Below are positions 49,214-58,903 of a DNA stretch of 64,000 bases, piece by piece; the first letter of the stretch is position 1, and every line of letters starts with the position of its first letter. Both the position numbers and the translations under genes were made by a program. The notes beneath the pieces were generated by a model that was not told the origin of the DNA, did not search any database, and worked only from the letters and a program-made list of their open reading frames with translations. Source of the DNA: Desulfarculaceae bacterium (GTDB lineage Bacteria > Desulfobacterota > Desulfarculia > Desulfarculales > Desulfarculaceae); contig JAHLKT010000003.1 in assembly GCA_020444545.1 (NCBI GenBank), forward strand, positions 124,001-188,000, in the 5' to 3' direction.

Positions 49214-51082
49214 ATGGATCAGGCCGTGGAACGCCACAACAGCTGCCTCAATAGCCGGGCCATCATCGACTATGTCGAGCGGCACTACGGCTCGCCTCAT
49301 TTGCTCCTCAAGGGGCTGGAGGATGAGCTCGGCGAGATCGAGGAGCCCCTGGCCTTTTTGCGCGACGCCCACAACTGGGTGTCGGCCGGGCTTCTGGCCC
49401 GCATGTACGCCAACGCCCGCGAGCTCACCGGCGATCCCCGCGTGGCCTTCCAGATCGGCTTCGAATCGGTCACCCACCAGCGCCTGGGTTACATCCAGCA
49501 AATCCTTTTGAAAGCCTGGGCCTCGCCCCGCGTGGCGGTCAAGCGCCTGGAGACCATCAACCGCAAGTTCAACCGCACCAAGGAAGTGGAGCTGGTCGCC
49601 CAGGAATCGGACCACGCCCTGGTGCGCCTGCACTGGCTGCCCGGCATCGAGGTCAGCGACGACTTCTGCCTGATGAACCAGGGGGTCTACTCGGCCATCC
49701 CCACCATCTGGGGCCTGCCCCCGGCCCGGGTGGAGGAGACCAAGTGCCAGTTCGAGGGCGACGAATACTGCGAGTTCGACGTCCGCTGGCGCAACCCCTC
49801 CCTGGTGCAGCGGGCCCGCCTGCTCATCCACAACCAGCGCAGCCTCCTGGGCGAGAGCCTGGCCGAGATCGAGCACGACAAGCAGCTTCTGGAGCACAAG
49901 TACTCCGAGGTGCAGGCGCTCAACCGCCAGCTCATGCGCAAGATAGAGCAGATCCTGGCCATCCAGCAGGCCTCGGGAGCCATCCTCTCCGAGCTGGACT
50001 ACGGCCGACTGATTCCCAACGTCCTCTCCCTGTTCCTCAGGACCATCGGCTACCAGCGGGCCATGATCATGCTGGTGGACGAGAGCGCGCAGATGCTGCG
50101 CTTCGAAGAGGGCGTGGGCATGGACCCCAGCGACCTGGCCCCCATGGACGGCTATTCGGTGCCCATGGACCGCTCCAGCAACCTCCTGGCCCGCGTGGCC
50201 CAGAGCGGCCAGCCCCTGATCAGCCACGACGCGGCCCGTTTGAACCTGAACCCCAAAAACCTCATCATCCGCAAGTATCAGCCCCAGGCCATCGTGATCC
50301 TGCCCCTGACCGCCCAGGGCCGGGTGATCGGCATCCTGGCCGCCGACCGCCCCGAGGGCGACGACCCGGTGACCAGCATGGACCGCGACTATCTGGGGGT
50401 GTTCGCCAACCAGGTGGCCCTGGCCATCGAAAACGCCCGCATGTACCGGGACCTCAAGGAATCCTTCCTGTCCACGGTGCAGTCCCTGGCCCAGGCCCTG
50501 GAAGCCAAGGACCCCTACACCCGCGGCCACTCCGAGCGCGTGACCACCTACGCGGCGCGCCTGGCCACCCGGGTGGGCCTGCCCGAGGAAGAGGTGGAGA
50601 TGCTCAAGCGCCTGGGCATGCTCCACGACGTGGGCAAGATCGCCCTGGACCGCCAGATCCTGAACAAGGAAGGCAAGCTCTCCGACGAGGATCTGGAGAT
50701 GGTGCGCAAGCATCCCATCTGGGGCGAGAGCATCATCCGGCCCCTCAAGCTGACCAAGGCCGAGATGGCCATCGTGCGCCACCACCACGAGCGCTACGAC
50801 GGCCGGGGCTATCCCGACGGCCTGGCCGCCGAGGCCATCCCCCTGCCCGCCCGGGTGATCAGCGTGGCCGACGCCTTTGACGCCATGACTAGCGACCGCC
50901 CCTACCGCAAGGCCATGGGCCTCAGGGACGCCCTGGACGAGTTGGAGCGCGGCGCGGGCAGCCAGTTCGACCGCAAAATGGTGGAGGCCTTTGTCACCAT
51001 GGTGCGCGAGGGCCGCATCGACGACGTGCTGCCCCGCCACCGCAAGGACAACCTGCGCCATCTCAACCTGGCCAAGACCTAA
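49214..51082 (+). CDS. V4R-like/GAF/HD-GYP domain protein, probable cyclic-di-GMP phosphodiesterase
   Basis: 622 residues. N-terminal 190 residues resemble a V4R/haem-NO-binding-like small-molecule domain (RVEETKCQFEGDEYCEFDVRW is the typical ending). A coiled coil (200-255) and a GAF domain (about 265-410) follow, then an HD-GYP domain (from 420) with HSERVTTYAARLA, HDVGKIAL, HHHERYDGRGYPDGL and DAFDAMTSDRPYR. The HD residues and GYP are intact, so activity is likely. Soluble, no membrane helix. A terminator at 51107 separates it from the convergent GGDEF-EAL gene, so the two c-di-GMP enzymes are neighbours. Confidence 0.88.
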   Translation: MDQAVERHNSCLNSRAIIDYVERHYGSPHLLLKGLEDELGEIEEPLAFLRDAHNWVSAGLLARMYANARELTGDPRVAFQIGFESVTHQRLGYIQQILLKAWASPRVAVKRLETINRKFNRTKEVELVAQESDHALVRLHWLPGIEVSDDFCLMNQGVYSAIPTIWGLPPARVEETKCQFEGDEYCEFDVRWRNPSLVQRARLLIHNQRSLLGESLAEIEHDKQLLEHKYSEVQALNRQLMRKIEQILAIQQASGAILSELDYGRLIPNVLSLFLRTIGYQRAMIMLVDESAQMLRFEEGVGMDPSDLAPMDGYSVPMDRSSNLLARVAQSGQPLISHDAARLNLNPKNLIIRKYQPQAIVILPLTAQGRVIGILAADRPEGDDPVTSMDRDYLGVFANQVALAIENARMYRDLKESFLSTVQSLAQALEAKDPYTRGHSERVTTYAARLATRVGLPEEEVEMLKRLGMLHDVGKIALDRQILNKEGKLSDEDLEMVRKHPIWGESIIRPLKLTKAEMAIVRHHHERYDGRGYPDGLAAEAIPLPARVISVADAFDAMTSDRPYRKAMGLRDALDELERGAGSQFDRKMVEAFVTMVREGRIDDVLPRHRKDNLRHLNLAKT

Positions 51083-51106
51083 GCAGTCATCGCTATAAAA
51101 TGAATA

Positions 51107-51141
51107 AGGCCCCGCCGCACGGCGGGGCCTGGTTGTTTTTT
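51107..51141. terminator. intrinsic terminator between HD-GYP and GGDEF-EAL genes
   Basis: Stem AGGCCCCGCCG / CGGCGGGGCCT with a tiny loop, followed by GGTTGTTTTTT on the plus strand. On the minus strand the flank is TATTCATTTTATAG, so it may serve both convergent genes. Confidence 0.8.
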
Positions 51142-51154
51142 GGGGAAGGCTCTT

Positions 51155-52984
51155 TTAGTGCAGGCGCGTACCGCTGGCCAGCAGGTCGTACAGCTCCGTC
51201 TCGGGCAGGGGCCGGCTGAACAGGAAGCCCTGGATCTGGTCGCAGCGCCGCTCGCGCAGGAAGCTCAGCTGATCGCGGTTCTCCACCCCCTCGGCGATCA
51301 CCTTGAGCCGCAGGCCCCGGCTCATGTTGATGATGGTGTCCACGATGGAAGCGTCGTCGCTGTTCACCGCCACGTCCTGCACAAAGGAGCGGTCTATCTT
51401 CAGGGTGTTCATGGGGAAGCGCTTCAGATAGTAGAGGTTGGAGTAGCCCTTGCCGAAGTCGTCCATGGAGAGCTGGACCCCCAGGCGGTTTAGCTCCTCC
51501 AGAGTTACGATGGCCTCGTCCACCGAGTTCATGACCATACTCTCGGTCACCTCCAGCTCCAGGCAGCGCGGGTCCAGGCCGGTGCGCCCCAGGGTCTCGG
51601 CCACCATGGGCACCAGGTCCTTTTGCTGAAACTGGCGCGGCGAGAGGTTCACCGACACCGCCAAGCCCTCCCGTCCCTTGTCGTGCCAGGCCTTGGTCTG
51701 GCGGCAGGCCTGCTCCAGCACCCAGCGCCCGATGGGCACGATCTGGCCGGTGTCCTCGGCCAGGGGAATGAACTCGCCCGGGCTGATGAGCCCCTGCTCG
51801 GGGCGCTGCCAGCGCACCAGGGCCTCCACCCCCACCACGCTGCCCTGGTTCAGCTCCACCTTGGGCTGGTAGTGCACCAGGAACTCCTGGTTGTCGATGG
51901 CCGAGCGCAACGCGCCCTCCAGGGCCATGCGCCGCTGCACCTTGTCGTTTAGCTCCGGGGTGAACAGCTTGAAGTTGTTGCGGCCCGCTCCCTTGGCCCG
52001 GTACATGGCCATGTCCGCGTTGGCCATCAGGGTCTCGGCCTCGCGGCCGTCGTCCGGGAACAGGGTGATGCCCACGCTGGCCGAGAGGAAGAACTCGCGG
52101 CCCCGCAGGCTAAAAGGCCTGGCCATGGCGTCCAGCACCCGCTGGGCCACCACCCCGGCGTACTCCGGCTCCCGGATGCCCATCAAGAGCACGATAAACT
52201 CGTCGCCGCCCAGGCGGGCCACGGTGTCCTCGTCGCGCACCGTGTCGGCCAGGCGGGCGGAGGTCTCGCGCAACAGCTCGTCGCCCGCCGCGTGGCCCAG
52301 GCCGTCGTTCACGTGCTTGAAATTGTCCAGGTCCAGAAACAACAGGGCCAGGCGCTGGTCCTTGCGGGCCGAGCTGGCGATGGCCTTTTCCAGGCGGTCG
52401 TTGAACAGGCGGCGGTTGGGCAGCCCGGTCAGCGCGTCGTGGTAGGCCAGGTAGGTGATCTTCTCCTCGGAGTTCTTGATGGCGCTGATGTCGCGCACCG
52501 CCCACACCAGGCGGCCTTGGTCGCCGCCCATGCGGGCCACGGAAAGCCACTGGTGAAACTCGTGGCCGTCGGGGCGCTGGTGCACCACCTCGCCGCCCCA
52601 CACCCCCTCGTCCTCCAGGGCCGCGAAGATCGCGGCATAGACGCCGGCCGCGTCGGGGTGCTGGTTCAGCCCGGCCAGGGACTGGCCGTTCGCCTGCCCG
52701 GCCTCGTGCCCGCAGATCTGGCAGAAGGCCGCGTTGACCATCTGGACCTGGCCCATGGCGTCGGTTACCGCGATGCCTTCGGAGGTGCTCTCCAGCACCT
52801 GCTCCAGCAGGCGGCTGTGGTGGCGGCAATGCTCCAGCTCGCGCCCGAGCTGCTCCATCACCTCCAAACCGCTTTCCACCACCTGGCTCAGCTCGCGGCG
52901 GCGGGCCTGATCCAGCTCCAGCCGCTCCAGGACGGCGCTCAGTTTGTCTCTCCAGCTGCTGATGATTTCCGGGCTAGGCGTCAC
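51155..52984 (-). CDS. PAS-GGDEF-EAL cyclic-di-GMP enzyme
   Basis: 609 residues from GTG 52984, which has GGGAG 5 bases upstream; an ATG at 53029 gives 15 more residues but no ribosome site. Coiled coil (1-70), PAS domain (about 60-180), GGDEF domain with LGGDEFIVLL intact, and EAL domain with VGVEALVRW, SMDDFGKGYSNLYYL and AEGVENRDQL intact. Both catalytic cores look active, so net synthesis or breakdown cannot be told. No membrane helix. Lies next to the HD-GYP gene. Confidence 0.92.
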   Translation of the reverse strand: MTPSPEIISSWRDKLSAVLERLELDQARRRELSQVVESGLEVMEQLGRELEHCRHHSRLLEQVLESTSEGIAVTDAMGQVQMVNAAFCQICGHEAGQANGQSLAGLNQHPDAAGVYAAIFAALEDEGVWGGEVVHQRPDGHEFHQWLSVARMGGDQGRLVWAVRDISAIKNSEEKITYLAYHDALTGLPNRRLFNDRLEKAIASSARKDQRLALLFLDLDNFKHVNDGLGHAAGDELLRETSARLADTVRDEDTVARLGGDEFIVLLMGIREPEYAGVVAQRVLDAMARPFSLRGREFFLSASVGITLFPDDGREAETLMANADMAMYRAKGAGRNNFKLFTPELNDKVQRRMALEGALRSAIDNQEFLVHYQPKVELNQGSVVGVEALVRWQRPEQGLISPGEFIPLAEDTGQIVPIGRWVLEQACRQTKAWHDKGREGLAVSVNLSPRQFQQKDLVPMVAETLGRTGLDPRCLELEVTESMVMNSVDEAIVTLEELNRLGVQLSMDDFGKGYSNLYYLKRFPMNTLKIDRSFVQDVAVNSDDASIVDTIINMSRGLRLKVIAEGVENRDQLSFLRERRCDQIQGFLFSRPLPETELYDLLASGTRLH

Positions 52985-53346
52985 GGTTGCTCCCATCCAG
53001 GTTACGGACCTAAAAGCCAAATTGCGCACTAAGTTAGCACCCTTGCCCGACGCCTGGCAAGCCCTGTCCCGGCCGGGGGCTCTGGTTTAACGCGATGGTC
53101 ACGCAACACGGCCAACCGCATCGGGCCCAGGCCCCATGCGGTCTTTCGCGGAGGCCGGGGCGGCAAGCCAAGCATCCGCAGGCCCGGCCGGAGCGATCGG
53201 GGCCCGGCCAAATCGCTCCAGGCTGTATTGTCTTTAATCTCCTAGTGATATTGCGCTAGAATGGGTCCAACCACGCCCGCCCCGATCTCCCATCCAGAAC
53301 GCATCCATCCGGCGGGATATTCAGGCTACATTTCCGGGAGGGGACC
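52985..53346. other. intergenic region with two hairpins
   Basis: 362 bases without a gene between divergent genes. Two stem-loops follow one another: 53115-53142 (ACCGCAT / ATGCGGT, with an inner GGGCC / GGCCC) and 53190-53219 (GGAGCGAT / ATCGCTCC, 14-base loop). An AT-rich patch at 53224-53262 with TAGAAT may hold the asdA promoter; its -35 is poor. The hairpins could be part of the asdA leader or of a small RNA. Confidence 0.4.
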
Positions 53347-54960
53347 ATGCCCAAGAAAAAGACTTCCACCCGCGCCCAAGAACGCAAGCTGGAAAGGCTC
53401 AGCCCCTTCCAGCTCAAGAACCGCCTCATCGAGCTGGCCACCACCAGCCACGAGCGCATGATGCTCAACGCGGGCCGGGGCAACCCCAACTGGACCGCCA
53501 CTGAGCCGCGCCAGGCCTTTTTCAGCCTGGGGCAGTTCGCGGCCTCGGAGTCCGAGCGCGCCCTCGACCTGCCGGCCATGGGCGGCCACCCGGTGGTGCG
53601 CGGCATGATCAGCCGCTTCGACAAGTGGTGCGCCGCGCATAAGGATCAGGAGGGCGTGGCCTTCCTGCGCTCCGCCCTTTCCCTGGCCCAGCGGGAGATG
53701 GGCCTCAAGCGGGCCGACCTGTTGGCCGAGCTGGTGGGCGGCATCCTGGGCGACAACTACCCCACCCCGGACCGGATGCTCTCCCTGTGCGAGGTGGTGG
53801 TGCGCAAGTATCTGGACCTGGAGATGTGCGCGGCCAAACCGCCCCGGGGCAAGTTCGACCTGTTCGCCACCGAGGGCGGCACCGCGGCCATGTGCTACAT
53901 CTTCAACTCCCTGGCCGAGAACAAGCTGTTGCACAAGGGCGACAAGATCGCCCTGGGAACCCCCATATTCACGCCCTATCTGGAGATCCCCCACCTCAAC
54001 GACTATGAGTTGATGGAAGTGGAGGTCATGGGCGACGAGCACAACGACTGGCAGGTGCCCGAGGGCGAGCTGGAAAAGCTGGCCGACCCCAAGGTCAAGG
54101 CCTTCTTCCTGGTCAACCCCTCCAACCCGCCCTCGGTGAGCATGGCCCCCAAGGACCTCGCCTACCTGGCCAAGCTGGTCAAGACCAAGCGCAAGGACCT
54201 CATCATCCTCACCGACGACGTGTACGGCACCTTTGTCAACGGCTTCCGCTCGCTCATGGCCACCTGCCCCAAGAACACCATCTGCGTCTACTCCTTCTCC
54301 AAGTACTTCGGCTGCACCGGCTGGCGCCTGGGGGTCATCGCCATCCACCAGAACAACGTCTTCGACCAGGCCATCGCCGGGCTGTCCAAGAAGGACAAGA
54401 AGGCCCTGAACCAGCGCTACGGCAGCGTGACCCTGGACGTGCCCTCCATGAAGCTCATCGACCGCATGGTGGCCGACAGCCGGGCCGTGGCCCTTAACCA
54501 CACCGCCGGGCTCTCCACGCCCCAGCAGGTGCAGATGGCCCTGTTCGCCTTGCAGGGCCTGCTGGATTACAAGGCGGGCTACAAGTACAAGGCCCAGGCC
54601 CAGGCGGTGGTGAGCCAGCGCTTCGACGACCTGTACAAGGCCGTGGAGTTGGGCTATAGCTCCAGCCCCTACGACGCGCACTACTACACCACCATCGACG
54701 TGGGCGACATGGCCGAGGCCAAGTACGGCAAGGCCTTTGCCAAGTGGATGATGAAGAGCTACGAGCCGGTGGACTTCGTCCTGCGCCTGGCGGCCGAGCG
54801 CGAGGTGGTGCTCCTGCCCGGGGCGGGCTTCGACGCGCCGGACTGGACCATCCGGGTGTCCCTGGCCAACCTTCCGGACCAGGCCTACGTGAAGATCGGC
54901 AAGCAGGTCAAGAGCCTGGTGGCCGAGTATTACGGCGAGTACCAAAAGGCCAAGAAGTAG
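53347..54960 (+). CDS. asdA: bifunctional aspartate aminotransferase / aspartate 4-decarboxylase
   Basis: PLP enzyme that decarboxylates aspartate to alanine and CO2 (and transaminates aspartate). 537 residues, the length of AsdA; the Schiff-base Lys sits in YSFSKYFGCTGWRLG. N-terminal NAGRGNPNW and ATEGGTAAM and the central NPSNPPSVSM are AsdA family marks. ATG with GGGAGGGG 4 bases upstream. It is followed 26 bases later by the aspartate:alanine exchanger, the classic partner: exchange of Asp for Ala plus intracellular decarboxylation consumes a cytoplasmic proton and builds proton motive force. Confidence 0.93.
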   Translation: MPKKKTSTRAQERKLERLSPFQLKNRLIELATTSHERMMLNAGRGNPNWTATEPRQAFFSLGQFAASESERALDLPAMGGHPVVRGMISRFDKWCAAHKDQEGVAFLRSALSLAQREMGLKRADLLAELVGGILGDNYPTPDRMLSLCEVVVRKYLDLEMCAAKPPRGKFDLFATEGGTAAMCYIFNSLAENKLLHKGDKIALGTPIFTPYLEIPHLNDYELMEVEVMGDEHNDWQVPEGELEKLADPKVKAFFLVNPSNPPSVSMAPKDLAYLAKLVKTKRKDLIILTDDVYGTFVNGFRSLMATCPKNTICVYSFSKYFGCTGWRLGVIAIHQNNVFDQAIAGLSKKDKKALNQRYGSVTLDVPSMKLIDRMVADSRAVALNHTAGLSTPQQVQMALFALQGLLDYKAGYKYKAQAQAVVSQRFDDLYKAVELGYSSSPYDAHYYTTIDVGDMAEAKYGKAFAKWMMKSYEPVDFVLRLAAEREVVLLPGAGFDAPDWTIRVSLANLPDQAYVKIGKQVKSLVAEYYGEYQKAKK

Positions 54961-54986
54961 GGCCGCGCGAGAGGGAGTCGATACTC

Positions 54987-56678
54987 ATGCACGAGGTAAT
55001 CGCGTTTCTCAAGAACAACCAGGTGGTCCTGATGTTTTTGGTGATCGCCCTGGGCTACATGCTGGGGCACATCAAGATCGGCTGGTTCTCCCTGGGCACC
55101 ATCGCCGGCTCGCTAATCGTGGGCCTTCTTATCGGATTGACCGCCGACTACAACATCGCGCCCATCATCAAGAGCGTGGGCTTCGGCGTGTTCATCTACG
55201 CGGTGGGCCTGCGCGTGGGGCCCCAGTTCTTCGCGGGCATGAAAAAGGACGGCCTCAAGCTGGTCACCATGTCCCTGGTGGCCTGTCTGTCGGGCTTCGC
55301 GGTGGTCTACATCATCTCGGAGTGGCGGGGCTTCGACTGGGGCATCGCGCCGGGCATCCTCTCCGGGGCCATGACCAACACCCCCACCCTGGGCGCGGCC
55401 GAACAGGCCATAACCTCGGGCGCGGCCAAGCCGCCCGCGGGCATCACCGCGGACATGGCCATGAGCTCGGTGGCCGTGGCCTACGCCATCACCTACCTCT
55501 TCGGCACGGTGGGACGCATCGTGCTGTTCAAGATGCTGCCCCGCTTCTTCGGCTACGACCTGGCGGCCGAGGCCAAGAAGCTTGAGGCCCAGATGAGCCA
55601 GGATGAGCCGGGCCACGACCCCAACAGCGACTACTTCTCCGAGTACCACATCTGGGACCTGCGCTCCTTCGAGGTGACCAACCCCGAGATCGAGGGCAAG
55701 CCCTTGAGCGAGCTGGCCCAGGAGCACCCGGAGAACCTGGCCATCGAGCGCATCAAGCGCGGCGACAAGATCATCGAACCCAGCCCTGATTTCAAACTGG
55801 CCCAGGGCGACCTCATCGCCCTGTCCGGCTCCATCAACGACGTGGCCCAGGCGGCCAGCGTCATCGGCCCGGAGAAACCGGACAAGGAGATCCTGGACCT
55901 TATGGCCGAGGACCTGGAGATCCTGGTGACCAACAAGGCGGTGGCGGGCAAGAGCCTTCAGGAGGTGGGCCAGAACCACGGCCGGGGCTGCTACGTCACC
56001 GGCTTCATGCGCGGCGGGGTGGAGCAGCAGGTGCACCACGGCCAGAAGCTGCAAAAGGGCGACATCCTCATCATCAGCGGCATCGGCTCGCGGGTGGACG
56101 AGCTGGCCAAGGTGCTGGGCTACCCGGTGCGCCGCTCCGGGGTCACCGACCTGTTCACCCTGGCGGTGGGCATGGTGGTGGGCAGCCTCATCGGGGCCAT
56201 CACCGTGAAGGTCTTCGGCGTGCCCCTGAGCCTGGGCTCGGCCGGCGGCCTCTTGTTGGCGGGCATCGTCATCAGCTTCCTGCGCTCGCGCCACCCCACC
56301 TTCGGCAACATCCCCGGCGGGGCCCGGGCCATCCTGGAGGACATCGGGCTCACCATCTTCATCGTGGTGGTGGGCCTGAGCGCGGGCAGCAGCGTGATCA
56401 AGGTGCTCAAGACCTCGGGCGCCGACGTGTTCCTGGCCGGCCTGGCGGTCACCTTGATCACCGCCATCCTGCCCTGGCTGTGGGGCAAGTACATCCTCCG
56501 GCTCAACCCGGTGATCAACATCGGCGCCTGCACCGGCGCCGGAGTGATCACCGCCGCGCTCAAGGCGGTGAGCGAGGAGGCCAAGTCCTCCCTGCCCGCC
56601 CTGGGCTATCCCGTGCCCTACGCGGTGAGCACCATCCTGCTCACCGTGGCCGGCTACATCATTCTGCAACTTCTCTAG
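54987..56678 (+). CDS. aspT: aspartate:alanine exchanger (AspT, AAE family)
   Basis: 563 residues: five N-terminal helices (VVLMFLVIALGYMLGHIKIG, GIAPGILSGAMTNTPTLGAA), two central TrkA-C/RCK-C domains (about 215-375) and about five C-terminal helices (LFTLAVGMVVGSLIGAI onward), the AAE layout. AspT takes up aspartate and exports alanine electrogenically. The start ATG 54987 has GAGGGAG upstream; the longer open frame overlaps asdA and is not coding. Middle gene of asdA-aspT-ansB. Confidence 0.92.
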   Translation: MHEVIAFLKNNQVVLMFLVIALGYMLGHIKIGWFSLGTIAGSLIVGLLIGLTADYNIAPIIKSVGFGVFIYAVGLRVGPQFFAGMKKDGLKLVTMSLVACLSGFAVVYIISEWRGFDWGIAPGILSGAMTNTPTLGAAEQAITSGAAKPPAGITADMAMSSVAVAYAITYLFGTVGRIVLFKMLPRFFGYDLAAEAKKLEAQMSQDEPGHDPNSDYFSEYHIWDLRSFEVTNPEIEGKPLSELAQEHPENLAIERIKRGDKIIEPSPDFKLAQGDLIALSGSINDVAQAASVIGPEKPDKEILDLMAEDLEILVTNKAVAGKSLQEVGQNHGRGCYVTGFMRGGVEQQVHHGQKLQKGDILIISGIGSRVDELAKVLGYPVRRSGVTDLFTLAVGMVVGSLIGAITVKVFGVPLSLGSAGGLLLAGIVISFLRSRHPTFGNIPGGARAILEDIGLTIFIVVVGLSAGSSVIKVLKTSGADVFLAGLAVTLITAILPWLWGKYILRLNPVINIGACTGAGVITAALKAVSEEAKSSLPALGYPVPYAVSTILLTVAGYIILQLL

Positions 56679-56693
56679 GGAAACGGAGCAGCC

Positions 56694-57740
56694 ATGCTCA
56701 AGAAAATATGCCTTATCATTTGCGCCGCCGCGCTGATCCTGGCCGCGCTTCCGGCCCTGGCCAAGGACAAGCTGCCCTTGGTGGTGGTGGTGGCCACCGG
56801 CGGCACCATCGCCGAGAAAACCGGGGGCGGCGGCGGAGCCCAGCCCGCCCTGAGCGGCAACAGCCTGGTGGCCGCGGTGCCCGGCCTGGCCAAGGTGGCG
56901 CGCATCCGGGTGGTCAACCTGGTCAACATCGACTCCTCCCAGATGACCCCGGCCATCTGGGCCAAGCTGAGCCGCACCGTGGCCGCCGAGCTGGCCAAGC
57001 CCGAGGTGGCCGGCGTGGTGGTCACCCACGGCACCGACACCATGGCCGAGGGAGCCTGGTTTTTGGACCTCACCCTCACCAGCCCCAAGACGGTGGTCTT
57101 CACCGGGGCCATGCGCGACGCCAGCGATCTGAGCCCCGACGGGCCGGTGAACATCATGGACGCGGTGACCCTGGTGCTTTCGCCCGAGGCCAAGGGCTGG
57201 GGCGTGGTGGTGTGTTTGAACTACTACGTCAACGCGGCCCGCTGGGCGGTGAAGACCCAGACCACCAACGTGCAGACCTTCACCTCCGGCCAGAAGGGCT
57301 ACCTGGGCTACGTGCTGGGCAAAGTGGTGGAGCGCTGGCACCCGCGCCCGCCCCGCCTGACCCTGCCCCTGCCCGCCAAGCTGGCCAAGGTGACCTTCGT
57401 GGCCGACTACGCGGGCAGCGACGGCTCGCTGATCCGCTATGCGGTGGACCATGGCGCCAAGGGCCTGGTGGTGGAGGGCGTGGGCTCGGGCAACGTGAAC
57501 GCCGAGGTGTACGGAGCCATCAAGTACGCCCTGAGCAAGGGCGTGGAGGTGGTGATCACCACCCGGCCGGTGCACGGCGGGGCCTGGCCCATCTACGGCG
57601 ACCAGGGCGGCGGCTACACCCTCAAGAAGGCGGGCTGCATCCTCTCCCGCGACCTGGATAGCTTCAAGAGCCGCCTGCTATTGATGCTGGCCCTGGGCAA
57701 CGGGGCCAGCCACCAGCATCTGCTGGAGTTCTTCAAGTAA
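56694..57740 (+). CDS. ansB: periplasmic L-asparaginase (type II)
   Basis: Hydrolyses L-asparagine to aspartate and ammonia. 348 residues with a signal peptide (LIICAAALILAALPALA). The catalytic parts are present: Thr in ATGGTIAEK, VVTHGTDTMAEGAWFL with the Thr-Asp pair, and FTGAMRDASDLSPDGPVN supplying the Lys-side loop region (Met-Arg as in type II enzymes). The start lies 15 bases after aspT. In context it would make aspartate in the periplasm for AspT. It is unrelated to the asparaginase II gene at 16.5 kb. Confidence 0.93.
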   Translation: MLKKICLIICAAALILAALPALAKDKLPLVVVVATGGTIAEKTGGGGGAQPALSGNSLVAAVPGLAKVARIRVVNLVNIDSSQMTPAIWAKLSRTVAAELAKPEVAGVVVTHGTDTMAEGAWFLDLTLTSPKTVVFTGAMRDASDLSPDGPVNIMDAVTLVLSPEAKGWGVVVCLNYYVNAARWAVKTQTTNVQTFTSGQKGYLGYVLGKVVERWHPRPPRLTLPLPAKLAKVTFVADYAGSDGSLIRYAVDHGAKGLVVEGVGSGNVNAEVYGAIKYALSKGVEVVITTRPVHGGAWPIYGDQGGGYTLKKAGCILSRDLDSFKSRLLLMLALGNGASHQHLLEFFK

Positions 57741-57754
57741 GCTCGGCATAACCA

Positions 57755-57781
57755 GGGGCGGCCTCCGCGCGGGGACGCCCC
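57755..57781 (+). terminator. hairpin after ansB
   Basis: GGGGCG / CGCCCC arms with an inner CCGCGCGG, followed by GGCCTCATCCCTTTT. Moderately good terminator for the asdA operon. Confidence 0.4.
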
Positions 57782-57811
57782 GGCCTCATCCCTTTTCCCT
57801 AGGCCCAGCCC

Positions 57812-58903
57812 CTAAGGCAGGGGCGCGAAGCTTTGCAGCACCGCGCGGAAGGCGGGCTCCAGCTCGGCCTGGCGCGCGGGCGGGCAGATCAGGCTGAGGA
57901 TGTAGACGCGCTCCCCCACGCTCAGGAACACCACCGTGGCCTGACCGTCCTTGCCCTGGTACAGGGCCTGGTAGGCCGGGCGTCCGGCCACGCTTCCCTT
58001 CTTGCCGTTGGCCTTGTGTTGCAGGGCCCCGCCGGGCCGGCCCACCGCCCCCTTCTCGAACTCGGCCACGAAACTCTCCAGGCTCATGCCCGGCGCGGCC
58101 GTGGCCAGGTTAACCTGGATCATGGCTTCCTTGTCCGGAGTCCACAGGCTCACCTGGCGCTTGGCCGCGTCCTCCGTTGGCTTCCAGCCCTGGGGCGGGA
58201 CCAGGCTGGCCCGGGCCGCCGCAAAGGCGCGGCTGCCCGCCGGGGCCCTGGGCTGGGCCGTGCTCTGTATCTCCACCGGGGTCAGGTCGAACTCCACGGT
58301 GGTGGTGGTCATGGGCTTTATCTCCACCGGCCGCCCCTGGCGCACCCCGCCCGCCTGCACCTGCAAGAAATGGCTACCCACCGGCAGCTCGTCCAGGGTG
58401 AGAGGGGTCTCGCCCCGTAGATGGCCGTCGAGCTGCACCTGGGCCTTGGGGCGGCTGAGCACCTTCAGGGTGCCGTGGGTTTGGGCCTTTTGCAGCTTCC
58501 GTGACATGGCCAGATACTTGCGCGCCTGGCCGTTTTCGGGAAACACCGCCAGATGCTGCTGGAAAAGCCTGGCGGCCTGGCGATAATGCCCCGCGTTGAA
58601 CTCGTCCAAGGCCTGGGTGTAGGCCAGGCGGGCCTTGCGGCGGCGCTGAATCTCGGGCTGGTCGGCGTAGTCTGGCTGCGCGGCGGGCTTGGCCGCCGGG
58701 GGAGCCGCCTGGGCCGGGGGCGCGGGGGGCGCGGCCGGGGCCTGGGGCGCAGCTGGTGCGGCGGGGGCCGGGGCGGCGGCCGGAGGCGGGGCGGGCTGCT
58801 GGGCCTGGAAGCGCTCGGCGTCCACCCAGGGCTGCTCTCCGGCGGCCAGGGCCGGCAAAGCCCACAACGACACAAGGGCCAAAACAGCTAGCAGGCGGGG
58901 CAT
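57812..58903 (-). CDS. secreted PEGA-domain protein with Pro/Ala linker
   Basis: 363 residues. Signal peptide (LLAVLALVSLWALPALA), an extended Pro/Ala-rich linker (about 35-75), a TPR-like helical pair (YTQALDEFNAGHYRQAARLF), a PEGA domain (GTLKVLSRPKAQVQLDG ... GETPLTLDELPVGSHFLQVQ) and a C-terminal beta domain of unknown type. PEGA domains are surface-associated modules of unclear function. ATG with GAGGAG 5 bases upstream; a 12-bp direct repeat (GGGGCATTATCG) spans the start. Confidence 0.72.
   Translation of the reverse strand: MPRLLAVLALVSLWALPALAAGEQPWVDAERFQAQQPAPPPAAAPAPAAPAAPQAPAAPPAPPAQAAPPAAKPAAQPDYADQPEIQRRRKARLAYTQALDEFNAGHYRQAARLFQQHLAVFPENGQARKYLAMSRKLQKAQTHGTLKVLSRPKAQVQLDGHLRGETPLTLDELPVGSHFLQVQAGGVRQGRPVEIKPMTTTTVEFDLTPVEIQSTAQPRAPAGSRAFAAARASLVPPQGWKPTEDAAKRQVSLWTPDKEAMIQVNLATAAPGMSLESFVAEFEKGAVGRPGGALQHKANGKKGSVAGRPAYQALYQGKDGQATVVFLSVGERVYILSLICPPARQAELEPAFRAVLQSFAPLP

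Follow-up and report, generated by a model that had tools for sequence, protein, structure and literature searches.

Can a decarboxylation cycle known to run on free aspartate be made to start from asparagine outside the cell? The question is raised by three adjacent genes, asdA, aspT and ansB, in a 64,000-nucleotide stretch of the genome of a Desulfarculaceae bacterium (GenBank assembly GCA_020444545.1, contig JAHLKT010000003.1, positions 124,001 to 188,000; hereinafter the window). A sequence-only reading of the window had assigned to these genes an aspartate 4-decarboxylase, an aspartate:alanine exchanger and an asparaginase with a signal peptide, and had described the first two as a known system for generating proton-motive force (pmf). 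That description holds for Tetragenococcus, in which electrogenic Asp1−:Ala0 exchange coupled to decarboxylation is established (PMC9508256). Based on a computational analysis of the locus, we propose, with a probability of roughly two in three, that the genes form a probable three-gene operon through which the known proton-motive Asp:Ala cycle would also be fed with asparagine.

Table 1. Features of the asdA-aspT-ansB locus, in window coordinates.
Feature	Positions	Strand	Description
GGDEF/EAL gene	51155-53029	-	divergent, upstream of asdA
asdA	53347-54960	+	537 aa, PLP-dependent aspartate 4-decarboxylase family protein
asdA/aspT gap	54961-54986	+	26 bases, without terminator-like site
aspT	54987-56678	+	563 aa, AAEx-family exchanger
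aspT/ansB gap	56679-56693	+	15 bases, without terminator-like site
ansB	56694-57740	+	348 aa, predicted exported asparaginase-family protein, YGxxGGG (Tyr-loop) subfamily
Predicted AnsB signal peptide	56694-56762	+	residues 1-23, Ala-Leu-Ala then Lys; sequence inspection
AnsB active-site lid	56805-56843	+	residues 38-50, Thr38 = EcAII Thr12; Tyr25-equivalent missing
AnsB C-terminal loop	57567-57614	+	residues 292-307; Tyr301 (57594-57596) in PIYGDQGGG
PEGA-domain gene	57812-58903	-	convergent, downstream of ansB

Rechecking of the open reading frames returned the three genes on the plus strand with the spacing originally reported (Table 1). Purine-rich, ribosome-binding-like stretches are seen by inspection 5′ of all three starts; a scan of both intergenic gaps found no terminator-like sites, and no sigma-70-type promoters were detected in window positions 52900-58000. 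Because the flanking genes are divergent upstream and convergent downstream, the co-directional run consists of exactly asdA, aspT and ansB. This layout points to a probable three-gene operon whose members are presumably co-transcribed. The HD-GYP and GGDEF/EAL genes on the asdA side (49214-53029) adjoin asdA in L021 and L152 as well, judging by the sequence of the gene starts, which suggests a neighborhood conserved within the genus.

With 779 bits for NF006755 (cut-off 321) and 734 bits for TIGR03801 (cut-off 435), AsdA passes both models, which bears out its membership of the aspartate 4-decarboxylase family. Its PLP lysine is K319 (K315 in the solved enzymes), and R44, Y138 and R503 correspond to R37, Y134 and R497 of those enzymes; the PLP lysine and the three other active-site residues are retained, with few or no exceptions, among 99 relatives. 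At the site of R487 in the solved enzymes AsdA has an alanine (A493). The structures 2zy5 and 2zy3 in the PDB differ at this residue, and we take R487A to be an inactive version of the solved enzyme. We accordingly considered loss of decarboxylase function but dropped the alanine as a decisive sign of it: the site is highly variable, with G, S, K, A, R, V, Q or N among the 99 relatives, most of which are encoded beside aspT, and the residue is therefore not family-defining. A separate AsdA-like clade displays export-like starts (L155:7007-8773, L027:297-2075, L028:1878-3653 and L029:7744-9471), which are Tat-like (MKRREFLKRSAW, SRRDFFKYA) in L155 and L027 and Sec-like in L028 and L029. No aspT was found near these genes, one of which (L155, genome G303) belongs to the window's family; an AsdA-like PLP enzyme in the periplasm would be out of the ordinary.

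AspT matches PF06826 and TrkA_C, has its two TrkA_C domains placed between two membrane halves, and can be aligned over its full length to solved aspartate/alanine antiporters. Its gene adjoins asdA across a 26-base gap, thereby presenting the adjacency of a decarboxylase and an AAEx exchanger. However, its 499.7 bits on TIGR03802 (query from residue 2) fall below the equivalog cut-off of 546.95; hence, we file it as an AAEx-family protein for which aspartate:alanine exchange is predicted. Thus, the family assignment of the sequence-only reading stands, while the substrates that it named are predictions. AspT R76 aligns with R76 of the Tetragenococcus AspT, a residue named as involved in transport in the title of a reference given in PMC9527358. 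The same site is occupied by E, K, G, S and other residues in many asdA-adjacent AspT proteins, including that of an L. plantarum plasmid, and as it is not general in the family we demoted R76 from a marker of Asp:Ala exchange to weak support. Duplicates of aspT, in tandem or flanking asdA, are found in L152, L153, L020, L086, L019 and other loci; two of the genomes concerned belong to the window's genus.

AnsB matches PF00710 and PF17763, and its start (MLKKICLIICAAALILAALPALA followed by KDK) looks like a classical Sec signal peptide that carries an Ala-x-Ala site, in line with the signal peptide previously noted by inspection. A hydrophobic N-terminal stretch recurs in all 13 of the 13 asdA-linked members of its subfamily, and a periplasmic location is predicted for AnsB from the signal-peptide sequence. 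The best fold matches of its AlphaFold monomer are type II asparaginases, and at 34% identity to the type II enzyme of E. coli (AnsB, EcAII) it retains EcAII T12, S58, T89, D90, K162 and N248, with T38, T114, D115 and K187 as the equivalents of the catalytic T12, T89, D90 and K162. These features sustain its earlier reading as an asparaginase-family protein; however, it scores 242 bits on TIGR00520, below the cut-off of 314.3, and is without the EcAII residues Tyr25 and Glu283, having Q or G (depending on the alignment) at the former site and G at the latter. Instead, it has a tyrosine, Tyr301, in an inserted YGxxGGG C-terminal loop, which exceeds its counterpart in E. coli AnsA by two residues. 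Every YGxxGGG member compared has this tyrosine and the canonical asparaginases do not, and among 32 asparaginases compared it never occurs together with Tyr25. The AlphaFold monomer has low pLDDT in loops 38-50 and 292-304.

A parallel is offered by the guinea pig type 1 asparaginase, in which Tyr308, from the C-terminal loop of the neighboring subunit, has been proposed on computed and structural grounds as the activator of the nucleophile (PMC12128190). In both enzymes a C-terminal-loop tyrosine replaces the N-terminal one, while AnsB differs in its predicted export and its overall type II-like character. As Tyr308 is proposed to have this role, AnsB Tyr301, its proposed equivalent, may activate the nucleophile likewise, and its loop may serve as a catalytic Tyr loop in place of Tyr25 and Glu283. 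By its sequence AnsB belongs to a distinct, predicted exported subfamily and departs from the usual type II enzyme, with asparaginase activity and specificity as predicted properties. YGxxGGG-type exported asparaginases unlinked to asdA or aspT were also observed (L137, L139, L140 and L141), which shows that the Tyr-loop trait extends beyond the cluster. No relatives of AnsB were found in viral contigs.

How often do these genes travel together? Within a phylum sample of 297 genomes, asdA is found in 14 and an asparaginase in 23, with both in one locus in six of the asdA genomes; their co-occurrence gives a Fisher p of 2e-4, uncorrected for phylogeny. We further examined 91 fetched asdA loci, drawn from two sources and biased towards window-like AsdA: aspT lies beside asdA in 85, while an asparaginase does so in 18, always on the same strand, and is absent in 73. 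The 18 include one broken asparaginase frame (L088) and one asparaginase at a distance of 1.9 kb that is truncated at the end of its contig (L018). The linked loci come from Desulfarculaceae, Desulfovibrionaceae, Omnitrophota, Bacteroidota and Bradyrhizobium and display the gene orders asdA-aspT-ansB, ansB-asdA-aspT (as in the cultured Solidesulfovibrio aerotolerans) and aspT-asdA-ansB; hence, the synteny whose spread the sequence-only reading had left to be scored reaches beyond this lineage into several unrelated groups. Supported branches of the AsdA tree (a quick tree with SH-aLRT support only) require eight or more changes in the asparaginase link, gains and losses not being told apart. 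All four asdA-bearing relatives of the window's genus have the link. A contig of Desulfarculaceae bacterium PL23a_bin.9 (L031) with the same three-gene run appears identical to L154, a contig of genome G302, which was placed in that genus.

One could still hold that the genes are chance neighbors with no functional link, given that most asdA genes are without an adjacent ansB and that ansB is unlinked in two Omnitrophota genomes (L186, L187). This we regard as highly improbable, as the link turns up in several lineages, in differing gene orders, and in every one of the above relatives: the association of asdA with ansB is more than chance. The AnsB clade is nevertheless not perfectly tied to asdA, since one member (L138) comes from a genome of the window's own family without asdA, and those in L186 to L188 are unlinked to it though their genomes have it. 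An asdA-aspT pair was also observed on a contig binned as Methanosaeta (L038:5842-9276); its AsdA groups with those of Omnitrophota, indicating transfer or mis-binning.

The asparaginases of the linked loci are of two kinds. Those of the window type form a separate supported clade from Desulfarculaceae, Desulfovibrionaceae, Omnitrophota and others, whereas canonical enzymes with Tyr25 and Glu283 lie beside asdA in L020, Chitinophaga and Bradyrhizobium; canonical enzymes joined asdA-aspT separately in L020, L086 and L102. This bears on the substrates, which we infer for both AspT and AnsB because the one is below its equivalog cut-off and the other is without Tyr25 and Glu283. AspT might exchange other dicarboxylates or amino acids, AnsB might hydrolyze a different amide, or AsdA might act mainly in transamination, as might be argued from the sub-threshold NCBIfam scores of the first two, the succinate and glutamate exporters among AAEx-family members (PMC9527358), the lost Tyr25/Glu283 and the replaced R487. 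We consider such a departure unlikely, as the separate joining of canonical asparaginases to asdA-aspT points to asparagine as the substrate, and as AsdA is well above its cut-offs with position 487 being variable in the family. Since the addition of an asparaginase recurs in unrelated bacteria, asparagine from outside is probably a common entry point to the Asp:Ala device.

In the asparagine-fed cycle that we favor, periplasmic AnsB would convert asparagine to aspartate and ammonium; AspT would take up aspartate(1−) in exchange for alanine(0), so that one negative charge moves into the cell; and cytoplasmic AsdA would turn aspartate into alanine and CO2 with the consumption of one proton. The net yield of each turn would be Asn → Ala + CO2 + NH4+, with one charge separated and alkalinization on both sides of the membrane. 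Observed are the genes present with their order and spacing, the retained active-site residues, the signal-peptide sequence and the recurrence, whereas we infer the substrate identities, the electrogenic exchange, the pmf and the physiological benefit.

The genes around some of the related loci concern the envelope. An OprB-family porin gene lies 2 bases 3′ of ansB in three Omnitrophota loci, and an OprD-family porin gene follows ansB in L020; the window itself has no porin gene linked to the cluster. In L056 and L025 ansB is preceded by the gene for a protein of about 475 residues with a signal-like start, which has no Pfam family match. In one Omnitrophota locus (L186:2541-6465) the gene for an AnsB-clade asparaginase is preceded, within a single run, by those for an OprB porin and an amino-acid permease, and the permease gene overlaps ansB by 4 bases; the asdA-aspT pair of that genome is on another contig. 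In L018:6960-12659 asdA and a canonical asparaginase gene are separated by the gene for a GadB-like PLP decarboxylase (PF00282). The porin and permease arrangements fit a route by which asparagine would pass into the periplasm and be hydrolyzed there, with aspartate then crossing the inner membrane. The Asn-to-Ala circuit of the sequence-only reading is strengthened by the adjacent porins and by its recurrence in unrelated lineages, and is still the best reading, though its exchanger is under the equivalog cut-off and its asparaginase is not the ordinary type II enzyme.

With protons consumed inside and ammonia released outside, the cluster could also be primarily an acid-stress device. The glutaminase-GadC-GadB system of acid resistance is a comparable scheme, and the chemistry is identical to that of the pmf cycle. 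The GadB-like gene adjoining asdA in L018 and the AnsB-clade gene directly behind the permease and OprB porin in L186 speak for such a role, but we judge it distinctly unlikely, as the cluster has no regulator or acid-stress gene and is flanked in the window by genes for c-di-GMP and PEGA proteins.

The host genome (4.38 Mb) encodes a dsrA over its cut-off and thus fits a sulfate reducer, in keeping with the sulfate-reducer context that the sequence-only reading had raised. It also encodes an alanine dehydrogenase, so that alanine might be used and not just exported. We found in it no aspartase over cut-off, no PF00710 gene besides ansB and no AspT-family gene besides aspT, which counts in favor of the asparagine-fed cycle. 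The alanine dehydrogenase, the dsrA, the absence of an aspartase over cut-off and ansB as the sole asparaginase gene also lend themselves to an account in which the same three reactions supply nitrogen and carbon: ammonium would be assimilated, and sulfate reduction would be fed with pyruvate formed by alanine dehydrogenase in the oxidation of alanine, while AspT would be an Asp:Ala exchanger only in part. Yet, a 1:1 exchanger would send alanine out, and a net gain of carbon would therefore need another route for aspartate or alanine; moreover, aspT is kept beside asdA in nearly all the fetched loci (85/91). Hence, we rate this supply role as improbable. Generation of pmf, pH defense and nitrogen or carbon supply share the same reactions, and sequence cannot separate them.

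The component parts of the unit are known, and the unit itself is a variant of the asp operon (asdA/aspD-aspT) known from Tetragenococcus halophilus and from comparable plasmids of lactic acid bacteria, with which it shares the tandem of AsdA decarboxylase and AspT exchanger. An L. plantarum plasmid has asdA followed by aspT as in the window; the lactic acid bacterial plasmid locus that we examined has no asparaginase, whereas the window adds a predicted exported one. The nearest precedent found is ansB-aspA-dcuA of Actinobacillus succinogenes, in which a putative exported asparaginase is proposed to convert asparagine in the periplasm to aspartate that feeds a co-encoded inner-membrane aspartate exchanger (PMC10634366). 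That system pairs aspartase with DcuA (Asp:C4-dicarboxylate) in fumarate respiration, while the window has AsdA and AspT. In the alf-2 cluster of Lactobacillus casei, asdA is likewise clustered with an enzyme releasing aspartate from an asparagine derivative; however, this enzyme is an autoproteolytic intracellular glycosylasparaginase, the transporter is an MFS permease, no aspT is reported and the decarboxylase activity of the Lactobacillus AsdA is weak (PMC6960285). The open-access literature searched, with most subscription journals outside its scope, contained no description of the three-gene unit, its recurrence or the adjacent Tyr-loop exported asparaginases, which agrees with the earlier impression that the arrangement was not a described one.

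Thus, the cluster is a real and recurrent variant of the known asp operon, and the proposed mechanism is likely. We give about even odds to the broader proposition of a recurrent envelope-spanning asparagine proton-motive cycle, comprising a porin in some lineages, a periplasmic asparaginase, AspT and AsdA, that would have its own exported asparaginase subfamily with a switched catalytic tyrosine and would have come together on more than one occasion, with unrelated asparaginases. For studies of how asparaginases work and select their substrates, the exported Tyr-loop enzymes offer a set of candidates. If the asparagine-fed cycle is true, it would be a test case for the coupling of a periplasmic amidase to an exchanger. 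Decarboxylation-driven energy conservation, known for free aspartate in food lactic acid bacteria, would then also take in asparagine as used by sulfate reducers, Omnitrophota and other bacteria.
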